DNA of 21,445 nt from a virus. Each line of letters begins with the position of its first letter. The first letter of the stretch is position 1. The position numbers and the translations under genes were made by a program. The notes below the pieces were generated by a model. It saw only the letters and a program-made list of their open reading frames with translations, was not told the origin of the DNA and did no database searches. Location: positions 1 through 21,445 of the IMG/VR virus record IMGVR_UViG_3300030104_005030; one strand, written 5' to 3'. Shown here piece by piece: positions 1,852 to 18,884 of this stretch.

Positions 1852-4800
1852 CTATTCTTGTGGTGAATATATTCCAGCCGGTTCAAAGTCTCTTGATACT
1901 GCTCCAAAATAATTTGCTCCTCTAGAGTATATTGATTGAACAACATCGTCTCCTGATTTATTATCTGCAAATAGTATTTTTCCACCAATAGATAAATCTA
2001 AGTAAAATGGTAATTGTCTTCCTTCATCTATATCCCATGGAGATTGGTCATTTGGAGCCAAGTCAAACTTGTCTACAATTAATGGTGTGTCTATAAACCA
2101 ATCACCTATAGTTATTTTTAATAATGGCGCAACTGGTAATCCTCCCTTGTATTCTGGAGAAATTAACTGCATAAATCTGTTTAATCTTTTGTAATTAGCT
2201 ATTAGTTCATTCTTTGTTCCAGCAGCCATTTTTAAGTCAAATCCTATTTCCCTTCCCATAGACTCAAATAAATACAATGGAGAAGTTCTACCAACATAAG
2301 TCACCTCTTGCCAACTAGGTGATATATTATCGGATAGTCCTGTCATGTAGGCTCTAAATTGTAATTGTTCTGCCTCTTCTCCAGCCGGTGTAGCCGTTGA
2401 AAACTTTACCCTAATTAAATCATCAAATGCTGGCTTATATTCTGGATTTTCTGGATCTGTCATATCAACAGAAGCATCTTCTAAACCTAAATTATTTGTT
2501 ACGTCTCCTCTTTGAGGTAATCCACCACCGTCTGGGTCGAATTGCGTACCATAATCTCCCTTAAACCTAGAAACTCTATCTTTTCCTCCCCATGGAGCTC
2601 CTTCTCCATTATCACCACCGTTTGGCCTATGGAAGTTTTGATTTTCATCGGAAGTTAGTAGTTCTCTGAAGTCCATTAGTTTTTGCGTAGTTCTTTCTAC
2701 AGGTATAAGGCCATAAGTTAATGTTTGGTATCTTCTTATTCTTTGGTTTTGAGACACAAGTAAATTTGAATTAGAAGTTACGTCTGCTCCTGCACCTCTT
2801 AGTTCTGCAAGGTCATCTGGTGAGTTTATACCATCATTATCTTCAATTGAAAATCTCTGGGTTAGTGGAGATTGGTATGGTCCTCCTGAACCAACTTCAG
2901 TTTCGCCTTCTGCTTCTGGGTCTGGTTCTTCAGGTTGGTTTTGAAAGTCACCGAGCATTTCGTCATATAATCCTACACCAACCTTATCAGTGTATTTTGT
3001 ATGTCTATTCCATTGCCTACGTCCTTTTAATAGCCCTTCGTTTTCAAAATTAAAATCACCCATCACATCATGTAATTCTTCATTATCTGTTACGAATGTT
3101 TCCTGATCAGGCTTTTTTATTCCTGCTTCTTCATGACCTAATTGTCTTATTGCCTGTCTAGATTTGTAAGGATTTGTATCTGCAAGGTCAGTCATTCTGT
3201 CATATGCATCACTATTTGAATCTGCATCAGACCTAAAATTATCTTTACCTGAGACATTTCCACCATATTGGTCGCTGTATTTGTCTCCATCGTTTGACGT
3301 ATTATATACTCTTGCAAAAGAAGGGTTTTGAGTTATCCTATCTCCTTGTTCCTGTTTGAATATTACATCCTGTCCTCCAGAGGTTAGGTATTTTGAATCA
3401 CTAAAGGTTCCTCCTGTTTCTTCATGTTGTCCTATTCCTACACCAGCAGAAGACCTATATATAGTAGTACCACCAATTCCGTATACTGAATGTGGTCCTA
3501 AAAAGTTTTTATCTGATAGACGTGTTATCTTTACCTTAGACATTCCTCTAACAGCAGCAGGCAATTTACTTACTAGTTTTCTTTTTAACCCATCCTTAAG
3601 ACCGTCAGCTGAAGGTATATTAGAAAGAGATTGATTACCACCATCACTACTATCTTTTTCAAAAGCAAATAAACCTGACTGCATATCTGTTGCTAGATAA
3701 ACTAATCTTGATTCACTTCTTTTATTACCAGCACCCATTGGAGTACCTGTATCTAAATCTGGTAATTTTGGTACGTCTCCAGTAACGTCACTCATATCTG
3801 GAACGTCTAATCCTGCCTCTTCTGCAGCTGCTTTAGCTCCTCCACCTCCACCAGAACCAAATGAGGCATAAACATTATCCTCATATCTGGCATTTTTAGG
3901 TAAAGTACCGTTTAATGGTCCCAATCCATGTCGTATTAAATGAATACCAACAGCGTTTGTTAGTGTTTGAGCTAAAGTAGATAATCCTAAAGGATATACT
4001 CTATTTGCCCCTAAACCTAATATCTTATCCATTTGTACTTTAGGATTAGTTAATTGTTGTCCTACACTTTTTGCTATAAACAATAGCCCTTTTGGACTTA
4101 TTAAAAATTTACCTATTCTTAAAGCATCTATTAGTGAACGATTTATTGCAGTACCTACTCCACCTCTAATAAGGTCTATTCCAAATTTAGGTCCTGGTCC
4201 ATCACTAAATAAACTCCAATTTTTTCCTATATCTCTTAGTATAAATGGCTGATCTGTTGCATTACCAAAAGAATGGAAATTTGAAGATTCTTTTCTTAGG
4301 TCTGTTTCTCCCTTTCCTGGTATTCTTGTGTATAAACTATCAACCTTCTTCTTAAAGTCTCCACTATCAAATTGAGATTTTTTTGCAGATATATTTAAGT
4401 CTCCTCCAGGACCTGTTCCTCCTGCTACCCTATATTGTTGTCCTTGACCATCATTAGTTCCTGCTGTATTAGGACGTACGTCATTAAATGTATTTAAGTA
4501 ATTTTCAGTATTAAATTGATAACTTCCACCGCTACCTGCTTTTCCAGGATAAGTATATGTCTCACCAGATATATCAATAAAACCACTTGCATCTTTATGC
4601 CTTTGAGCTGTGGTAAAACCGCTTTGTGCTATATCATCTTGATTATTTAATCCAAAAGGAGGTCTTCCACCAACCTTATCATTATATTGCATTCTAGTCC
4701 AGGTTGAAGTATTTCCTGCGTTAACGGTTGCCATTTTATATTGCATTGTACCTGGATTACCAGTTACGCCTGTATAATCTGTTGGGCCTAAGTGGTTCTT

Positions 4801-5619
4801 ATTTGTTATAAATCCTATTGCATCTATATCTGCTATACCATTATGTATTTTTTGTACAGAATTAAGAACTCCAGGACTGCTAAATTCAGTTCCACTAATT
4901 CCAGTATATAAAGAATTAGGATAAGTTTGATTTGGAGAAAATCCTTCGTGATGAGGAGATTTTCCATCAACAAATTTTAGTTGAGTTGAAGTTCTAGGAC
5001 TATTAAAGTCTTGTCCACTAATACCAGTAAATTGTGTAGACTGCATTTCTTTTGTAAAACCTGTTGCATCTATATCTGGAGTACTATTTACTATAGATAA
5101 TTCAGGGGTTGTAAAACCTGGAACAAAACCAAAAGCAGAAACAGTTGTACCTATAAATGCTGGACTAAACGTAAATGATGTAGCATCTATTCCTATTTTT
5201 TCAGGACTAGCTGGTAAAGGAAATACTTCAGCAGTAGTTTTTTCTGGGGATGCACCAAATGGAATTGGTTCTTGAGTTGTTTTTGCCCGTGAAGCGCCAA
5301 ATGGAATTGGTTCTTGAGCAGTTTTTTCAGGAGTTGCTCCAAATGGAATTGGTTCCTGAGTAGTTTTTTGTGCAGTTGTTGCAAGTGGACTAATATCTTG
5401 TGTAGATTTTTCCGGTGTTGGACCAAAAGAACTAGGGTCTTGAACCATTTGCGCTAATTTTGAAATTGGAGTCTTATCTGTATTTGTATCTACATTAGGA
5501 CTTGTAAAATCAAATTGTCCAGGAGCAGGACCAATATTAGAAAATTCACTACCATTCTTACTGTAGAATGCTGCTAAATCTACTGTTTCAAACTTACTTA
5601 TTTTTGGTGATTCAGCCAT
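1852..5619 (-). CDS. Large baseplate/tail-tube-cap-like protein with repetitive N-terminus
   Basis: This 1255-residue protein starts one base after the tape measure stop (TAATATG), with AGGAG inside that gene's end. Three regions are visible. Residues 1-380 are Pro/Thr/Gly/Ser-rich and repetitive: five tandem 14-residue units at 68-137, then diverged units containing 'DIDATGF' and 'TGISG.xF.SP' up to about 350. The middle (about 380-1000) is glycine- and Asp/Asn-rich, with few recognisable features. The C-terminal 200 residues form a compact domain with 'YVGRTSPLYLFES' and 'REIGFDLKM', then a 'LNRFMQLISPEY' helix. That layout is typical of tube-fold baseplate proteins that cap the hub and start the tail tube (T4 gp48/gp54). 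T4 places 48 and 54 directly after tape measure gene 29, as here. T4 gp48 and gp54 are each under about 370 residues, so this looks like a tube-initiator domain carrying a long low-complexity extension. The role is inferred from C-terminal pattern and position. Confidence 0.6.
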   Translation of the reverse strand: MAESPKISKFETVDLAAFYSKNGSEFSNIGPAPGQFDFTSPNVDTNTDKTPISKLAQMVQDPSSFGPTPEKSTQDISPLATTAQKTTQEPIPFGATPEKTAQEPIPFGASRAKTTQEPIPFGASPEKTTAEVFPLPASPEKIGIDATSFTFSPAFIGTTVSAFGFVPGFTTPELSIVNSTPDIDATGFTKEMQSTQFTGISGQDFNSPRTSTQLKFVDGKSPHHEGFSPNQTYPNSLYTGISGTEFSSPGVLNSVQKIHNGIADIDAIGFITNKNHLGPTDYTGVTGNPGTMQYKMATVNAGNTSTWTRMQYNDKVGGRPPFGLNNQDDIAQSGFTTAQRHKDASGFIDISGETYTYPGKAGSGGSYQFNTENYLNTFNDVRPNTAGTNDGQGQQYRVAGGTGPGGDLNISAKKSQFDSGDFKKKVDSLYTRIPGKGETDLRKESSNFHSFGNATDQPFILRDIGKNWSLFSDGPGPKFGIDLIRGGVGTAINRSLIDALRIGKFLISPKGLLFIAKSVGQQLTNPKVQMDKILGLGANRVYPLGLSTLAQTLTNAVGIHLIRHGLGPLNGTLPKNARYEDNVYASFGSGGGGGAKAAAEEAGLDVPDMSDVTGDVPKLPDLDTGTPMGAGNKRSESRLVYLATDMQSGLFAFEKDSSDGGNQSLSNIPSADGLKDGLKRKLVSKLPAAVRGMSKVKITRLSDKNFLGPHSVYGIGGTTIYRSSAGVGIGQHEETGGTFSDSKYLTSGGQDVIFKQEQGDRITQNPSFARVYNTSNDGDKYSDQYGGNVSGKDNFRSDADSNSDAYDRMTDLADTNPYKSRQAIRQLGHEEAGIKKPDQETFVTDNEELHDVMGDFNFENEGLLKGRRQWNRHTKYTDKVGVGLYDEMLGDFQNQPEEPDPEAEGETEVGSGGPYQSPLTQRFSIEDNDGINSPDDLAELRGAGADVTSNSNLLVSQNQRIRRYQTLTYGLIPVERTTQKLMDFRELLTSDENQNFHRPNGGDNGEGAPWGGKDRVSRFKGDYGTQFDPDGGGLPQRGDVTNNLGLEDASVDMTDPENPEYKPAFDDLIRVKFSTATPAGEEAEQLQFRAYMTGLSDNISPSWQEVTYVGRTSPLYLFESMGREIGFDLKMAAGTKNELIANYKRLNRFMQLISPEYKGGLPVAPLLKITIGDWFIDTPLIVDKFDLAPNDQSPWDIDEGRQLPFYLDLSIGGKILFADNKSGDDVVQSIYSRGANYFGAVSRDFEPAGIYSPQE
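5209..5418 (-). repeat. Five tandem 42-bp repeats coding 14-residue units
   Basis: Residues 68-137 of the 1255-residue baseplate protein consist of five 14-residue units of the type TPEKTTQEPIPFGA. The middle three are nearly identical (TAQKTTQEPIPFGA, TPEKTAQEPIPFGA, SRAKTTQEPIPFGA) and the outer two are diverged (TPEKSTQDISPLAT, SPEKTTAEVFPLPA). The DNA repeats too: a 'caaatggaattggttc' core recurs every 42 bp on the plus strand. This indicates recent tandem duplication. Confidence 0.9.
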
Positions 5620-5620
5620 A

Positions 5621-8600
5621 TTATGCTCCTACAGGTCCTTTACCAAGGTGAAGAACTTCTCCAACCTTTCTTCCATCTAAGTTAATAGTACCGCCAGATT
5701 TAACTGCCGAAATTAGTTCATCCAATTTAGCCATCATCATAGCATTGCCCATCATACTACCTTTACCTCCACCGCCTTCACTTTCTTCTTCATTTTCTGC
5801 TGCTTCTAAATCTGCTTCGGCTGTTTTAAGACTACCAAGTAACCCTAATTTTTCCAATGCAAATAAAGTAGGTAATAGTGGAGTAATCAAGGCTAAACCA
5901 ACAGCCATTGGAATGAATCCTACACCAAGAGCCGCAAAGCCCATTCCTAATTGAGCCAACACCATTCCCATTCCTGTTAGAGGTTCGAGTAGTGTTGCCA
6001 ATATGGTTAAAGGTTCTATCATCATTGTTATTGCAGTCGCAAACATCATAAACATAGGCACCATTGGGCCTAATAATAACATTCCTATTGCTAGTGGAAT
6101 AATTCCTACTCCTAGTGCAGCTATTCCTGCTCCACCCATTAATAGTCCTTCGCCTAATTCTGCCAATGGAGCCAAAGCTTCTGACATAGCAAGCAATGAT
6201 TCTGCTCCTCCTGCTGCAGTAAACAATAAGAATCCAATAGATGCCGCTCCTAACGCTAATCCCATAGCTATTAAGGCTGGAGCCATTAAGAACATTGCAG
6301 GTATTGCAGGATACATCATCATCATTCCTATTGCAAGTTGAGGTAGCATAGGAATCAGTAATAAGAAATTAGGTATAGCTTCACTTACAACTTTCAAAGC
6401 GTGAGCTAAAACATACATGGCACTTGCGACTATTAACATTGCTGCAGCACCAGCTATAATTGCAGCTGCCCCTACACCTGACATCATTATTGCCCCTAGT
6501 AGAGCTACTGCTCCGACCAGAGCTAACATTGATACAACAGCCATACCAACAGCTTCCCAACTAACTTTCATAAATTCCTGTACAGCCTTTGCAAATACAA
6601 ATACAGCAGCGGCAACTATAATCATTGCAGCTGCACCTTGTATTGCTTTTTTCATATCCATTTTGCCAATATTATCCATAACACCACCTTTAGCTCCAGG
6701 ACCGCCTCCTTTAGTGTCTGGCATGGAAGGTGCCTTTGCTTTTGGCAGATCTGGTTTAGCAGCTCCACCGAATTTTTCTTTATTTACCTTAAACCTCATA
6801 TCTGGTTTACCGGCTTTGGTTAGTGGTCCAGCTCCTGCTCCCGTTAACTTACTTAGGCCAGGTATCATTCCTCCTAGTTTTTTACCTATACCACTTAACA
6901 GTCCTCCTACAGGTTTTAACATTGAACCCCACCCACCAAAACTACTAGCTATAGTGGCTGCCATAGTTGCGTGTTCTCCTAGAAAAGATAATGTTCTAAC
7001 GTACCATGGGTCTTGTAATGATTGTTCGTCAGTAATCTTTTTTACCGCATCTGCGCCTTCATCCGTTATATCATTTATTTTTCCTTGGTTTTCCAATATA
7101 TTAACTAATTCTTCAGTAGTCATACCTAAAGCCGCGGCAAGAGCGTCTTGTTTTATCATACTCATATCTTGGAAATCAGCTAATGAACCGGCCTGTTTTG
7201 TTATTTCTTTTGTAAACTCCATCATGTTTCCAGAGTTATATGCTTGTCTAGCTGCATTAAGGTTTAATTCTCTACCTATAAGTACGCTTGCTTCCATTTC
7301 AGCCTGTAAAGATGATTCTACGTCAAGCATTCCTTTACCTGCAGCTAGAAGTGAACCAAACTCAACATTTAATTTCTTTGTTGCAATTGCTGCCTTAGTC
7401 ATTTCTTCAAAACCTCTTTTACCAAACCTAGAAAATTGTTCAGTATTATCTGCAACAACTGCCATTAGTTGACCTGGAGCAAGATTGTTTACTTCTGCCA
7501 TTCCTTTTAAGAATTGTGCGGCCTCTTCTGCTGATGTGCCAGTACTTTCTTCCATTTCGTTTAAGTTTTTAACAAATTTGGCTGCCGTATCTGAACCTAA
7601 ACCAAATCTATCGGCTAATAACGTTACCTGTTTTACATTTTCACGATTCACCTCTGAAAGCTGGAATCCTTTGTTAAGCATGGCTTTTTGAGCATTTACA
7701 ACGTCTTCAGCAGCTATTCCCATACCAGTAAATTCAAGAGCAATAAGTTTTGACTGTGCTGTCATTTCTGTAGCAAAGCCCATACTAGTTCCCATTTCGT
7801 TTGCAAATTCTCTAGTAAGTTTTACTTGGTCTAACAACCATTTTCCAGCAGTAAATATTAACAGTTGAGGATTACTAAACAGTCCAATATAGTCAGAAAT
7901 TTTATTCTTCATATCATCAACAGCTTGTTGTTGCGCATTCATCCTTTCTTGTTGTTTACCTAGAATATCTCTATATTCTATTCCTAAGGCATTTTTTTCT
8001 GATAGTTTAACATTTAGTTCTTTTGCCTTATCTACTTGGTCCTGCATTAGGTTTAGAATTTCGTCCTCTTCTGCTTTTTGTTCTATTTTTTTAGCTAGTA
8101 TTTCTTCTTCTGAAGCATTTAATTCTTCAAGGGCAACTAATTCATCTTGGTGAGTTTGAGCCATTTCTGTTAAAATTTGGTCTTGACTTTCCATTAAGCC
8201 ACCAATATCTATATTACTATCAACTACGTCAGTTAACATTTGTGCATCTAGTGATATTAGTGAAGATACGGATTGGCCAACGGCTAATCTGCCTTTATCT
8301 AATGCTGCTTGAGCTAATTTGGCCTGTGTTTCGGTTACAGAATAATCACTAAGTGCTGCGGCATTTAGTATACTTTCCTCTTGCTGTTTAGCAAAGTCAC
8401 CCATAATCTTAGTTAAACTATGACCCGCCTGTTCTATTTCTCTTTGGTAGTTTGCCTGTTCCTTAGCGGCATCTGTGGCAGCTTGTAGGTTATCGAGTAT
8501 CTCTGAGTAGTTGTTATTTATTGTGTCTAAGGCTTTTTCTGCAGCCTGGAGAGATTTTAGATAGTCTTTGGCTTCTTTTTTACGTTTATCAGCAAAAGAG

Positions 8601-8716
8601 TCATACTTTTGAGACATAGTATCCACCTTGGCTTGATTTGACTGAACAATCTTACCATATTCTTTTGCTTGAGCGTTTAACGCCTGTTGGTCTTTTGCTG
8701 TAAACTTTTTAGCCAT
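5621..8716 (-). CDS. Tail length tape measure protein (gp29 analogue)
   Basis: This 1031-residue protein fits a tape measure protein, which sets tail tube length and is packed inside the tube. The N-terminus (about 1-275) is strongly helical and coiled-coil, rich in Gln, Ala, Lys and Glu. Residues about 275-600 form an Ala/Leu-rich helical region. Residues about 620-685 are a Gly/Pro/Lys linker, and about 686-960 are a long run of hydrophobic helices rich in Ala, Met, Leu and Gly. An acidic patch (EAENEEESEGGGG) and the end 'INLDGRKVGEVL', common at tape measure C-termini, follow. It is the second-largest gene here and lies just after the frameshifted tail chaperone, the standard position. 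It starts 10 bp after an 82-residue gene with only a weak ribosome binding site, so coupling to that gene is likely. The match is by architecture and order; T4 gp29 is much shorter (590 residues). Confidence 0.88.
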   Translation of the reverse strand: MAKKFTAKDQQALNAQAKEYGKIVQSNQAKVDTMSQKYDSFADKRKKEAKDYLKSLQAAEKALDTINNNYSEILDNLQAATDAAKEQANYQREIEQAGHSLTKIMGDFAKQQEESILNAAALSDYSVTETQAKLAQAALDKGRLAVGQSVSSLISLDAQMLTDVVDSNIDIGGLMESQDQILTEMAQTHQDELVALEELNASEEEILAKKIEQKAEEDEILNLMQDQVDKAKELNVKLSEKNALGIEYRDILGKQQERMNAQQQAVDDMKNKISDYIGLFSNPQLLIFTAGKWLLDQVKLTREFANEMGTSMGFATEMTAQSKLIALEFTGMGIAAEDVVNAQKAMLNKGFQLSEVNRENVKQVTLLADRFGLGSDTAAKFVKNLNEMEESTGTSAEEAAQFLKGMAEVNNLAPGQLMAVVADNTEQFSRFGKRGFEEMTKAAIATKKLNVEFGSLLAAGKGMLDVESSLQAEMEASVLIGRELNLNAARQAYNSGNMMEFTKEITKQAGSLADFQDMSMIKQDALAAALGMTTEELVNILENQGKINDITDEGADAVKKITDEQSLQDPWYVRTLSFLGEHATMAATIASSFGGWGSMLKPVGGLLSGIGKKLGGMIPGLSKLTGAGAGPLTKAGKPDMRFKVNKEKFGGAAKPDLPKAKAPSMPDTKGGGPGAKGGVMDNIGKMDMKKAIQGAAAMIIVAAAVFVFAKAVQEFMKVSWEAVGMAVVSMLALVGAVALLGAIMMSGVGAAAIIAGAAAMLIVASAMYVLAHALKVVSEAIPNFLLLIPMLPQLAIGMMMMYPAIPAMFLMAPALIAMGLALGAASIGFLLFTAAGGAESLLAMSEALAPLAELGEGLLMGGAGIAALGVGIIPLAIGMLLLGPMVPMFMMFATAITMMIEPLTILATLLEPLTGMGMVLAQLGMGFAALGVGFIPMAVGLALITPLLPTLFALEKLGLLGSLKTAEADLEAAENEEESEGGGGKGSMMGNAMMMAKLDELISAVKSGGTINLDGRKVGEVLHLGKGPVGA

Positions 8717-8726
8717 AGCTTATCTA

Positions 8727-8975
8727 CTAACTATATTTCTTTAACATTTTTTCATATGATGACTGGTATTTATCTGCAGCAGGAGAGTCAGATTGCATTA
8801 AATCCTGCATTTCTTTAGTATTCAAGAACTTTTTTATAGCCCTTTTCTTGGCACCTGCTTGCATTTTACTTAGTAACCCATTAAGTAATTTAACCAAAAC
8901 GTTATCTTCTTTGATTATTTTTTGTACCTCTTCAGAAACTATATTTTTAATTTTTTGTTTGCTGTTTTTTGACAT
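8727..8975 (-). CDS. Small basic helical protein, function unknown
   Basis: This 82-residue protein is lysine-rich (about one residue in five) and predicted helical throughout, with no signal peptide or membrane segment. The start is supported by TTAGGAG eight bases before the ATG. It lies between the tail assembly chaperone and the tape measure gene and is first in the unit behind the intergenic element at 9006-9019. Its position suggests a role in tail assembly or an aid to tape measure folding, but no family is recognised. The 10-bp gap to the tape measure gene, whose own ribosome binding site is weak, suggests that its translation feeds the next gene. Confidence 0.7.
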   Translation of the reverse strand: MSKNSKQKIKNIVSEEVQKIIKEDNVLVKLLNGLLSKMQAGAKKRAIKKFLNTKEMQDLMQSDSPAADKYQSSYEKMLKKYS

Positions 8976-9033: not shown

Positions 9034-9315
9034 TTATCGTCTTCTAGTAGGCATTCTTGGAGCTTTTGATTTACTTTTTGCCTTGTCCATTTCTTCTTGC
9101 TCTTTCTTCTTTACATCATGAAGTCTTTTCAAGTAATATCTTCTCAGATGGACAGGCATTTCGTATAACGCATCCCAGGTGAATCCCCCATTGGAATGAT
9201 ACGCTATATCAAATAGCGAGTTGTGCAGAATGGGTCTGTAATCAGACCCTAGGCCAAAAAAACTGAACGGACATTGGCATTTTAACAGTGTACTCTTCAC
9301 CATCGTCTTCGCCAA
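9034..9315 (-). CDS. C-terminal extension of the tail assembly chaperone, probably made by frameshifting
   Basis: This frame is open for 93 codons from a TTG at 9315, or an ATG at 9303, neither with a convincing ribosome binding site. The protein-like part starts only at the overlap with the preceding gene. From residue 21 it reads GLGSDYRPILHN, then 'GGFTWDALYEMPVHLRRYYLKRL' split by a strand-helix pattern, ending in a Lys/Arg-rich tail. The 'FTW..LY.MPV.LR..Y' helix is a pattern I associate with the second (T-type) part of phage tail assembly chaperones. A slippery U7 at 9256-9262 and a hairpin just after it join this frame to the upstream gene by a +1 or -2 shift. The product would be about 361-362 residues (288 plus 73). 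I therefore read it as a frameshift-expressed domain rather than a separately started gene. Separate translation, like T4 gene 51, is the alternative. Confidence 0.75.
   Translation of the reverse strand: MAKTMVKSTLLKCQCPFSFFGLGSDYRPILHNSLFDIAYHSNGGFTWDALYEMPVHLRRYYLKRLHDVKKKEQEEMDKAKSKSKAPRMPTRRR
9232..9262 (-). promoter_or_regulatory. Programmed frameshift site: U7 slippery run plus hairpin
   Basis: In the coding direction, CAG is followed by seven T (9262-9256), a six-base spacer GGCCTA, then a perfect 7-bp hairpin GGGTCTG-ATTA-CAGACCC (9249-9232). The zero-frame TGA stop (9244-9242) lies across the stem-loop junction. The zero-frame codons are CAG TTT TTT TGG. The downstream frame reads TTT GGC CTA, which is +1 (equivalently -2) relative to zero. 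A phenylalanyl-tRNA on the second TTT can re-pair with TTT either one base forward or two bases back, so both shifts are chemically easy. The spacer and hairpin match the usual layout of stimulatory structures. Confidence 0.75.
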
Positions 9316-10120
9316 AGAATGTGTAATCTAAATCTATATCAGGAGATACGTCATTGATATACTCTCTGAAAGCTAAAGAATCTCTAGAAAGAAATTCATT
9401 ATCAACAAATTTAGAAATAGCTAATCTGTCGTATTCTCCATCAACAGATACAATCATATATTTTAATCTAGTACTCAACTCTGGGTTAACACCGTTTATT
9501 TTTCGTCTAGATTTTTTTGCAGCTTTAATTTCATCTTGAATTTTCTTTTCATCTCCGTGAGTTAAAAGCTTAAATTCTATAGTTCTTTTAGAGGCAGGAA
9601 GCTTATATTCAAACTTATTTTCTCCACTACTATATAGAGATTCGTTAAATTCTTTAGCTTCAAATTGAGTTAAGTCGATAACCTCTTTTTGTTTTTCTCC
9701 ACTAGATGGATTTTGTAATTCTACCTCATACTGCTTTCCATAAGCTAGTACCCTTGCTGCAATCATAACAGCATTTTTATCACCTACAAGTAGGTCATTG
9801 TAATTTATAGGACTAACTATTAAATTTCTCAATAATACATCAATAACAGTACCATTTTTTATTAGGTTTTGAGAAGTAAGAATATCCTCCTCTTTTGCAG
9901 TCATATATTTTATTTCTATAGTACCTTCTGAAAGAACGCTATCCTTTGGATATAACATTCCTTTTGATGGTAAAGGTATAATTTCTGTTGGAAATTTTCT
10001 TTCCGATTGTGATTGTTTTTTAACTTCAGGCGCTGCATCTTGAATAACTTGATTCTTTAATTCTTCGTCTGATAATCTTTGTTTATTTCCAGGATAATCC
10101 GGGTTTACTTCTTTTGACAT
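9242..10120 (-). CDS. Tail assembly chaperone / gp26-like T4_baseplate family protein
   Basis: This 292-residue protein begins with a charged, probably flexible tail (1-45). It then has 'FPTEIIPLPSKGMLYP' and 'IEIKYMTAKEEDILTS', the signature I associate with the T4 gp26/T4_baseplate family. The next helices (about 85-125) include 'LLRNLIVSPINYNDLLVGDK'. It lies between tail tube and tape measure genes, the conserved site of phage tail assembly chaperones such as lambda G/GT, which hold the tape measure protein before tube polymerisation. The start is supported by AATGGAGATAGAG before the ATG. The 3' end overlaps the next open frame by 74 bp and contains a slippery run and hairpin, so a minor fused product is expected. 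Family membership is fairly secure. The chaperone role is inferred from position and frameshift layout; T4 annotation calls gp26 a baseplate hub subunit. Confidence 0.8.
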   Translation of the reverse strand: MSKEVNPDYPGNKQRLSDEELKNQVIQDAAPEVKKQSQSERKFPTEIIPLPSKGMLYPKDSVLSEGTIEIKYMTAKEEDILTSQNLIKNGTVIDVLLRNLIVSPINYNDLLVGDKNAVMIAARVLAYGKQYEVELQNPSSGEKQKEVIDLTQFEAKEFNESLYSSGENKFEYKLPASKRTIEFKLLTHGDEKKIQDEIKAAKKSRRKINGVNPELSTRLKYMIVSVDGEYDRLAISKFVDNEFLSRDSLAFREYINDVSPDIDLDYTFFGEDDGEEYTVKMPMSVQFFWPRV

Positions 10121-10242: not shown

Positions 10243-10734
10243 TTAGTACTGTAGTATCCAGTAATCGCATTGGATAGTTACGGTAATTTCATTAGCAGCT
10301 GCTGTTTGCGTCCAGTCAATAGCTCCAAAATCTGCTGCAGTAATCATTGCACCTTTACCTGTCCATTCTTCTACTTTATCACCTACAGGACCAAGTACGT
10401 TGATTGTTACGTCTTTCTTATAGAAGTCTGCGTAACCATCTCTACCTGTTACTGATTCGTGGTGTAAACGTACCCATTCCATTACAGCTTGCGCACCTGA
10501 AGGTACAATTGGGTCATATAATACTAAATCAATTGTTTCCCATGTGGTTTTACCCTTCACGTATCTTGATACATTCATATGTTGTAATTCTAATGCTTCA
10601 GTTGCTAATTTTGGTCTAGCAGCTGTACGTATTAGATATGCTGGTATACCATCAACGTAGAATATAAATCTATTTTGCTGTTTTGGCTCAAAGGCCGTGA
10701 ACATTATTTCATTTGGATCGACTAGATTTGCCAT
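10243..10734 (-). CDS. gp19: Tail tube protein
   Basis: This 163-residue protein matches T4 gp19 (also 163 residues), which stacks as hexamers to form the inner tail tube. Recognisable stretches are 'FEPKQQNRFIFYVDGIPAYLI' with 'ARPKLATEALELQHMN' after it, the 'WETIDLVLYDPI' strand pair, and the C-terminal 'ITVTIQCDYWIL' strand. These follow the usual order of the tube fold: early beta-hairpin, central loop-helix 'AVMEWVRLHHE', then the closing sheet. The start has AGAGGAG upstream, in a leader identical to that of the sheath gene. It directly follows gp18, as in T4, and is followed by a hairpin terminator. That suggests it can be transcribed alone or by read-through from gp18. Confidence 0.95.
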   Translation of the reverse strand: MANLVDPNEIMFTAFEPKQQNRFIFYVDGIPAYLIRTAARPKLATEALELQHMNVSRYVKGKTTWETIDLVLYDPIVPSGAQAVMEWVRLHHESVTGRDGYADFYKKDVTINVLGPVGDKVEEWTGKGAMITAADFGAIDWTQTAAANEITVTIQCDYWILQY

Positions 10735-18209: not shown

Positions 18210-18884
18210 TTATTTAGTAAGTTTATGGTTTTTATAGTAGTTTAATATATCTTCCAAGATTGGGTGTCTGTGGTTAGATAATAATTCTATAGTATGTAAA
18301 CCTTCAACCTCTTTAACACCTCTTAAGAATCCTAGTCCACTATCCCCGTTCTTTTTTAAGTCTACTTGGTCGGTGTCTCCACAAAACATCATTTTACTAT
18401 TTAGTCCTATTCTCTGTAGAATCATAAGCGTTTGCTCGTGGTCTAAGTTTTGACATTCATCAACTATTACACAACTATTTAAGAAAGTTCTACCTCTCAT
18501 ATATGATACAGGCACAATTTCAATCTGTCCTTTTGTTATCATTTGCTCTACCCTTTCTTTTCTGAGTAGTTGGTACATATTACCGTATATTGGAGCTACC
18601 CATGGAGACATTTTTTCTTCCATGTTTCCAGGTAAATGACCAAGGTCTTCTTTACTAATAGTTGGTCTAGTAATGATAATTTTAGTGTATCTTTTTTCTA
18701 GTAATCCATGAAGAGCAATTTGACACGCTAAAAGAGTTTTTCCTGAGCCTGCCTTTCCTAGTATTATTGAGACATCATTTTCTAGAATTTTTGCCTTTGC
18801 AATTTTTTGTTCTTCATTTAATGATAATAAGAACCTATAACCTTTCTTATTATTCTTTTTTCCGTTTACAAAATCTTTTGCCAT
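18210..18884 (-). CDS. phoH: PhoH-like P-loop ATPase
   Basis: This 224-residue protein has a complete PhoH ATPase core. Walker A is GKAGSGKT at residues 43-50, 'IITRPTISKEDLGHLPG' lies at about 70-86, and Walker B 'CVIVDECQN' at about 138-146. 'MMFCGDTDQVDL' at about 165-176 (sensor-like) and a terminal 'LLSNHRHPILEDILNYY' complete it. The family resembles the ATPase part of superfamily 1 helicases, and its role in phages is unresolved. It is common in marine phages, where a link to phosphate stress has been proposed but not shown. The start has CGGAGG upstream. The gene is separated from gp23 by a strong terminator and has its own AT element. It is the only clearly non-virion gene in the window and sits inside the structural cluster. 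Confidence 0.95.
   Translation of the reverse strand: MAKDFVNGKKNNKKGYRFLLSLNEEQKIAKAKILENDVSIILGKAGSGKTLLACQIALHGLLEKRYTKIIITRPTISKEDLGHLPGNMEEKMSPWVAPIYGNMYQLLRKERVEQMITKGQIEIVPVSYMRGRTFLNSCVIVDECQNLDHEQTLMILQRIGLNSKMMFCGDTDQVDLKKNGDSGLGFLRGVKEVEGLHTIELLSNHRHPILEDILNYYKNHKLTK

Follow-up and report, generated by a model that had tools for sequence, protein, structure and literature searches.

Does the tail assembly chaperone gene of this virus encode one protein or, through a programmed frameshift, two? The window analysed here is the whole 21,445-nucleotide stretch of IMG/VR virus record IMGVR_UViG_3300030104_005030, and the gene in question lies at 9242-10120 on its minus strand. The zero frame encodes 292 amino acids ending in VQFFWPRV and matches PF12322 (E = 1.4e-9; 38.4 bits against a cut-off of 24.5) and PHROG 150 (E = 3e-12), which places it among the short-form tail assembly chaperones (TAC-N) of the gp26/gp51 type. 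The chaperone role proposed in an earlier, sequence-only reading of this DNA holds through these profile matches. The gene is flanked, as in a lambda-type G/GT cassette, by the tail tube gene upstream (10243-10734, minus strand; PHROG 4542 tail tube, E = 3.5e-24) and by the tape measure gene (5621-8716, minus strand; PHROG 167 tape measure, E = 2.1e-8), whose product is the presumed client of the chaperone; both matches agree with the neighbours that had been named from the sequence. One small ORF of 82 amino acids (8727-8975, minus strand) lies between the chaperone gene and the tape measure gene, and profile searches (Pfam-type and PHROG) gave no convincing family match for it. Elsewhere in the window, a 1255-amino-acid protein (1852-5619) carries repeated QEPIPFGA-type segments at its N-terminus and has no PHROG match, and a PhoH-like gene (18210-18884) adjoins the major capsid region. 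PhoH-like genes near the capsid region are frequent in marine T4-like phages.

The final zero-frame codons of the chaperone gene are TTT TTT TGG CCT AGG GTC TGA. The candidate slippery site, TTT TTT TGG, occupies 9254-9262 (minus strand) and contains the T7 run 9262-9256, one of two seven-T runs on the minus strand of the window. After the spacer GGCCTA (9255-9250) it is followed by the hairpin GGGTCTG/ATTA/CAGACCC (9232-9249, minus strand), which holds the zero-frame stop TGA (9244-9242). The second frame stands in a +1 relation (equivalently -2) to the zero frame and ends at 9034; its putative T domain (9034-9255, minus strand, 73 codons) would form the C-terminal part of a predicted long form (TAC-NC) of 361 amino acids. 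The sequence-only reading had described the seven T, the perfect 7-bp hairpin six bases further on with the stop at it, and an alternative +1/-2 frame of 73 codons after the slip; its coordinates proved correct and the frame relation was confirmed on the window sequence.

We propose that one gene gives two tail assembly chaperones through a programmed frameshift, most likely +1, and assign to this reading a probability of about 0.83. Most ribosomes would read from 10120 to 9242 and terminate in the hairpin, which would give TAC-N, the equivalent of lambda gpG and T4 gp26. A minority would slip at UUU UUU UGG, most likely by +1: with UGG waiting in the A site, peptidyl-tRNA-Phe in the P site would move from UUU 9259-9257 to the overlapping UUU 9258-9256, so that GGC 9255-9253 would be the next codon, followed by CUA GGG and so on to 9034. 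Shifted reading would add the 73-residue T domain and yield TAC-NC, the equivalent of lambda gpGT and T4 gp51, and together the two chaperones would cover the tape measure protein and bring in the tail tube. Slippage itself and chaperone activity are what we infer here; what the comparison supplies is a conserved site and frame relation, a second frame constrained as coding sequence, a place in the chaperone family, homology of the T domain and lineages with decayed sites that have a start of their own.

A tblastn search with the second-frame peptide matched Microcystis phage Mel-JY01, Flavobacterium phages immuto and an uncultured 484-kb phage, and IMG/VR, scanned with this peptide and with four zero-frame proteins, yielded several hundred loci; deduplication left 194 junctions, mostly from IMG/VR. 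The +1 relation is found in 192 of them, with the second frame open past the zero-frame stop (a few short second frames among the 192 loci are cut by contig ends). TTTTTTTGG is present in 141 of the 194 junctions, in the identical phase TTT TTT TGG; the other types are TTT TTT TAC/TAT (20), TTC TTT TGG/TAC (18), TTT CTT TGG/TAC (9) and a few singletons. Conservation of the site and of the frame relation is far above chance, and the interpretation of the locus as a frameshift cassette is supported by it. The alignment of homologues suggested earlier as a check came out in two parts: the U run and the frame relation are conserved, while the hairpin is limited to certain lineages. The arrangement differs from a canonical -1 tandem slippery site (X XXY YYZ), the relation being +1, and not -1, in the window and in the same 192 junctions.

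On the U run, +1 and -2 had both been considered possible. Both do fit U7, and the natural variants favour +1, which we regard as the probable direction. The alternative is a -2 slip of the kind used by phage Mu, in which tRNA-Phe would move back two bases on U7 under the influence of the hairpin and one extra Phe would be incorporated; we consider it unlikely, with odds of about four or five to one in favour of a +1 slip. In bacteria, +1 shifting has been documented at UUU_Ynn and CUU_U (PMC5009743). UUU_Y or CUU_U, in which a pyrimidine follows the P-site codon and +1 re-pairing is permitted, stands at the second codon of the site in 192 of the 194 junctions, including the apparently non-frameshifting L213; outside this count are L002, with UUU_C one codon earlier, and L208, in which the T domain is a separate ORF. 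The P-site codon is UUU in 182 junctions, CUU in 10 and UUC in none, with UUC making up 20% of Phe codons elsewhere in these genes. This third-base case for +1 is ambiguous, since a -2 slip would make the base in question the central one of a Phe codon that is translated.

Less ambiguous are the 19 frameshifting loci of the wider family with UUC UUU Y, where +1 re-pairing works but a -2 slip would set tRNA-Phe on UCU. The base in the first codon of the site has changed 5 times on the tree, and the sites of PAU (GAA TTT TCT TAA) and L002 (AAC TTT CTA) are compatible with +1 only. Together with the P-site codon variants, these sites favour +1 over -2: re-pairing of the Mu type is permitted by U7 in the window but is not conserved among the relatives. 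The A-site codon is mostly UGG or UAC/UAU and not a stop. A positioned Shine-Dalgarno-like stimulator was looked for and not found: ahead of the slip, pairing with the anti-SD sequence was no stronger than in the two neighbouring segments.

It is the hairpin that speaks for a backward shift. Downstream hairpins usually stimulate such shifts, and a hairpin 6 nt downstream argues, on these general grounds, against +1. Strong stems 4-6 nt past U7 were found at 41 of 141 U7GG loci and at 0 of 53 others (Fisher p = 5.6e-7), that is, all 41 stand at intact U7GG sites, which counts in favour of the -2 slip. However, the remaining 100 of the 141 U7GG loci are without a strong hairpin, and the association of hairpin and U7GG was not significant across independent pairs on the tree.

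The structure itself is the one GC-rich hairpin among 13 perfect 7-bp hairpins found on the window. RNA folding gave z = -2.0 for a 54-nt region, and -12.4 kcal/mol with z = -3.8 for the 34-nt hairpin region. Twenty-four loci with the geometry of the window keep at least 6 of the 7 pairs, and compensatory changes on both sides affect pairs 2, 4, 5 and 7. When 110 loci were picked by stop position alone, mean pairing was 3.88 versus 3.45 (s.d. 0.08) with the arms shuffled, which exceeds all 1000 shuffles. Other lineages have a different stem in the same place, for instance GCGGGC/GCCCGC. A universal hairpin was considered and rejected, strong stems being found at only 41 of the 194 loci, against 17 of 189 in a control window. 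Judged by its covariation, the hairpin is real and limited to some U7GG lineages, and in the lineage of the window it probably raises the slip rate.

The two directions predict different products and different site requirements. A +1 slip would give a junction peptide with two Phe, SVQFFGLGSDYR, and a -2 slip one with three, SVQFFFGLGSDYR. The site change TTCTTTTGG should stay active under +1 and be dead under -2; the reverse, dead under +1 and active under -2, is expected for TTTTTCTGG. If the slip needs U7, it should be lost with TTCTTCTGG, in which U7 is broken at both positions. The direction is thus testable with few constructs, since the natural variants show what the site requires.

Sites with interrupted runs also bear on the possibility that it is RNA polymerase, and not the ribosome, that slips. 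On the seven-T tract the polymerase would produce transcripts that lack one U or carry two extra, and these would then be translated in the standard way. Most loci do have the U7 tract, but seven T are short for productive slipping, as is generally held, and the C-interrupted sites (TTCTTTTGG, TTTCTTTGG, TTTCTATTC), with T runs of at most 4, retain the arrangement. A stem loop can promote such slippage (PMC5009743). We find this explanation very improbable.

The coding status of the second frame was assessed on 77 independent pairs. Read in that frame, they differ by 328, 177 and 820 substitutions at codon positions 1, 2 and 3, and codon changes were 642 synonymous versus 400 non-synonymous; in the other two frames of the same pairs the corresponding synonymous and non-synonymous counts were 138 and 951, and 79 and 1000. 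This substitution pattern indicates that the second frame is under purifying selection at the protein level. In 74 of the 194 loci it has no ATG, GTG or TTG in the stretch between its upstream stop and the point 45 nt after the slip, and in 77 of the 194 it is open for at most 15 nt upstream of the slip. Purifying selection and missing starts together show the second frame to encode a conserved protein, to which in many loci the first frame offers the only access. The sequence-only reading had seen no convincing start in the second frame, and this holds for those 74 relatives; the window itself has an in-frame ATG at 9303 and a TTG at 9315, and the argument from absent starts rests on the relatives.

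These two codons are the starting points for a further alternative, in which the second frame would be a separate gene translated from its own start (ATG 9303 or TTG 9315) or reached by re-initiation past the zero-frame stop. We give it little credence: ATG 9303 is without a clear ribosome-binding site, and the stretch that should supply a start is free of start codons in the 74 loci mentioned. In its favour, Mel-JY01 is annotated in GenBank as having two overlapping genes, and in L208 (1900-2252) and L213 (1895-2211) the T domain occupies a different frame and has an ATG of its own directly after the stop. A relative with its own second-frame start had been named beforehand as evidence against frameshifting, and in these two such relatives were found. 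However, precisely there the slippery motif, retained in the remaining loci, is degraded (TTC TTG TAT and TTC CTT TGG CCA, respectively), which favours the frameshift instead. L208 and L213 appear to be a natural loss-of-frameshift control, the site having decayed once the T domain has a start that does not depend on it. Finally, homopolymer runs are in general error-prone in sequencing, but an error in the run or a decayed gene is a negligible possibility: the frame relation is identical in 192 of the 194 deduplicated loci, drawn from many assemblies, and in isolates, and the second frame is under strong purifying selection.

The family membership of the gene links the proposed frameshift to phage T4. 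Both T4 gp26 and gp51 are full-length members of PHROG 150, gp26 reaching profile position 235 and gp51 position 280 of 282; by this coverage the two are paralogues, gp26 corresponding to the short form and gp51 to the short form with a C-terminal extension. In profile-profile comparison with hhalign, the second-frame domain matched the -1 T domains of jumbo phages (96.7%, E = 4.8e-10) and an alignment of the S-PM2, phiM12 and gp51 C-termini (91%, E = 1.1e-6). Such a comparison was needed, as the PHROG 150 profile run on in-silico fused proteins gave a match that did not extend into the T domain. These matches identify the window gene as a T4-type tail assembly chaperone whose predicted long form ends in a domain with homology to the C-terminus of gp51. 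The link to T4 genes 26 and 51 drawn earlier is borne out by PF12322, PHROG 150 and T-domain homology, with the refinement that the two T4 proteins are paralogues, one short and one extended. The complete relatives Mel-JY01 and immuto have one chaperone gene per genome; PF12322 missed both, and the own profile of the window family finds them. A structure model was made of the short form only. Its first-ranked Foldseek match in the PDB was the HK97 tail assembly chaperone (2ob9), a weak one with E = 0.49, and the top two in VIA-align, both with low Z, were YqbN (3klu; Z 5.8, rmsd 4.5, 86 aligned) and HK97 gp13 (2ob9; Z 4.7, rmsd 6.1, 85 aligned).

T4 and the window are alike in their PF12322/PHROG 150 proteins and in having a short form and a longer one with a C-terminal T domain, whereas T4 uses two paralogous, divergently transcribed genes and the window one gene with a putative frameshift. 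Campylobacter phage CP81 (L302) has two paralogous chaperone genes that resemble gp26/gp51 except in being adjacent. Jumbo phages of the RaK2/121Q/PA5oct type, S-PM2 and phiM12 share with the window homologous N and T domains and a U run that ends the short form, yet their genes have a -1 relation at U_UUU_UUY in the zero-frame phase instead of +1 at UUU_Y. All RaK2/121Q/PA5oct-type phages (L020, L022-L032) carry U_UUU_UUC or U_UUU_UUU with a -1 T domain, and in S-PM2 and phiM12 the T domain is in the -1 frame at the U run. The short form of HTVC008M terminates in a comparable U run. The +1 relation was found in SP-15, LIS04, GXN1, RM378 and PAU. A tree of 24 sequences, on which branches are long and deep nodes poorly supported, requires two or more switches between +1 and -1. 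We put at about even odds the joint claim that within one homologous family the decoding rule changed several times for the same two products (-1 at U_UUU_UUY, +1 at UUU_Y/CUU_U, duplication or separate start), and that in the hairpin-bearing lineages, that of the window among them, either the hairpin may act as a stimulator of +1 shifting, something uncommon in bacteria, or a change to -2 may have taken place. From the paralogy of gp26 and gp51 and the frameshifts across the family it follows that the two-gene arrangement of T4 is one solution of several in a family whose other members frameshift.

With lambda G/GT and Mu-type cassettes the window shares the position before the tape measure gene and a short and a long form with a common N domain; lambda shifts by -1 and Mu by -2 (PMC5009743), the window by a predicted +1, and the likeness described here is one of arrangement. 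The +1 frameshift of bacterial release factor 2 (CUU_U, rarely UUU_U; PMC5009743) has, like the window family, UUU or CUU in the P site followed by U; it differs in that the window family has neither an A-site stop nor a positioned Shine-Dalgarno stimulator and has, in part, a downstream hairpin instead. According to a 2016 review, long-tailed phages other than T4 have widely conserved G/GT frameshifting, and -1, -2 and +1 variants are known elsewhere (PMC5009743). That gp26 and gp51 are the T4-like TAC-N and TAC-NC is credited to Vladimirov, Gautam and Davidson (2022) by the citing papers PMC10885494 and PMC12846349, and the title of that work proposes a non-frameshift mechanism for T4-like phages. 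The two-gene arrangement is reported in PMC10885494, and poly-T -1 signals in T4-like phages in PMC12846349. In open-licence papers we did not find a description of a +1 cassette of the T4 type. A large group of T4-like phages appears to use a +1 shift where homologues use -1 or two genes, and the public annotations of SP-15, LIS04, GXN1, RM378, immuto and Mel-JY01 lack the T domain or show it in pieces or detached from the rest. In the records of L016, L019, L015, L018 and L003 (SP-15, LIS04, GXN1, RM378 and immuto, respectively) the frameshifted T domain is omitted or represented only by short hypothetical ORF fragments, and the records of L020 and L022-L032 that were viewed carry no frameshift annotation.
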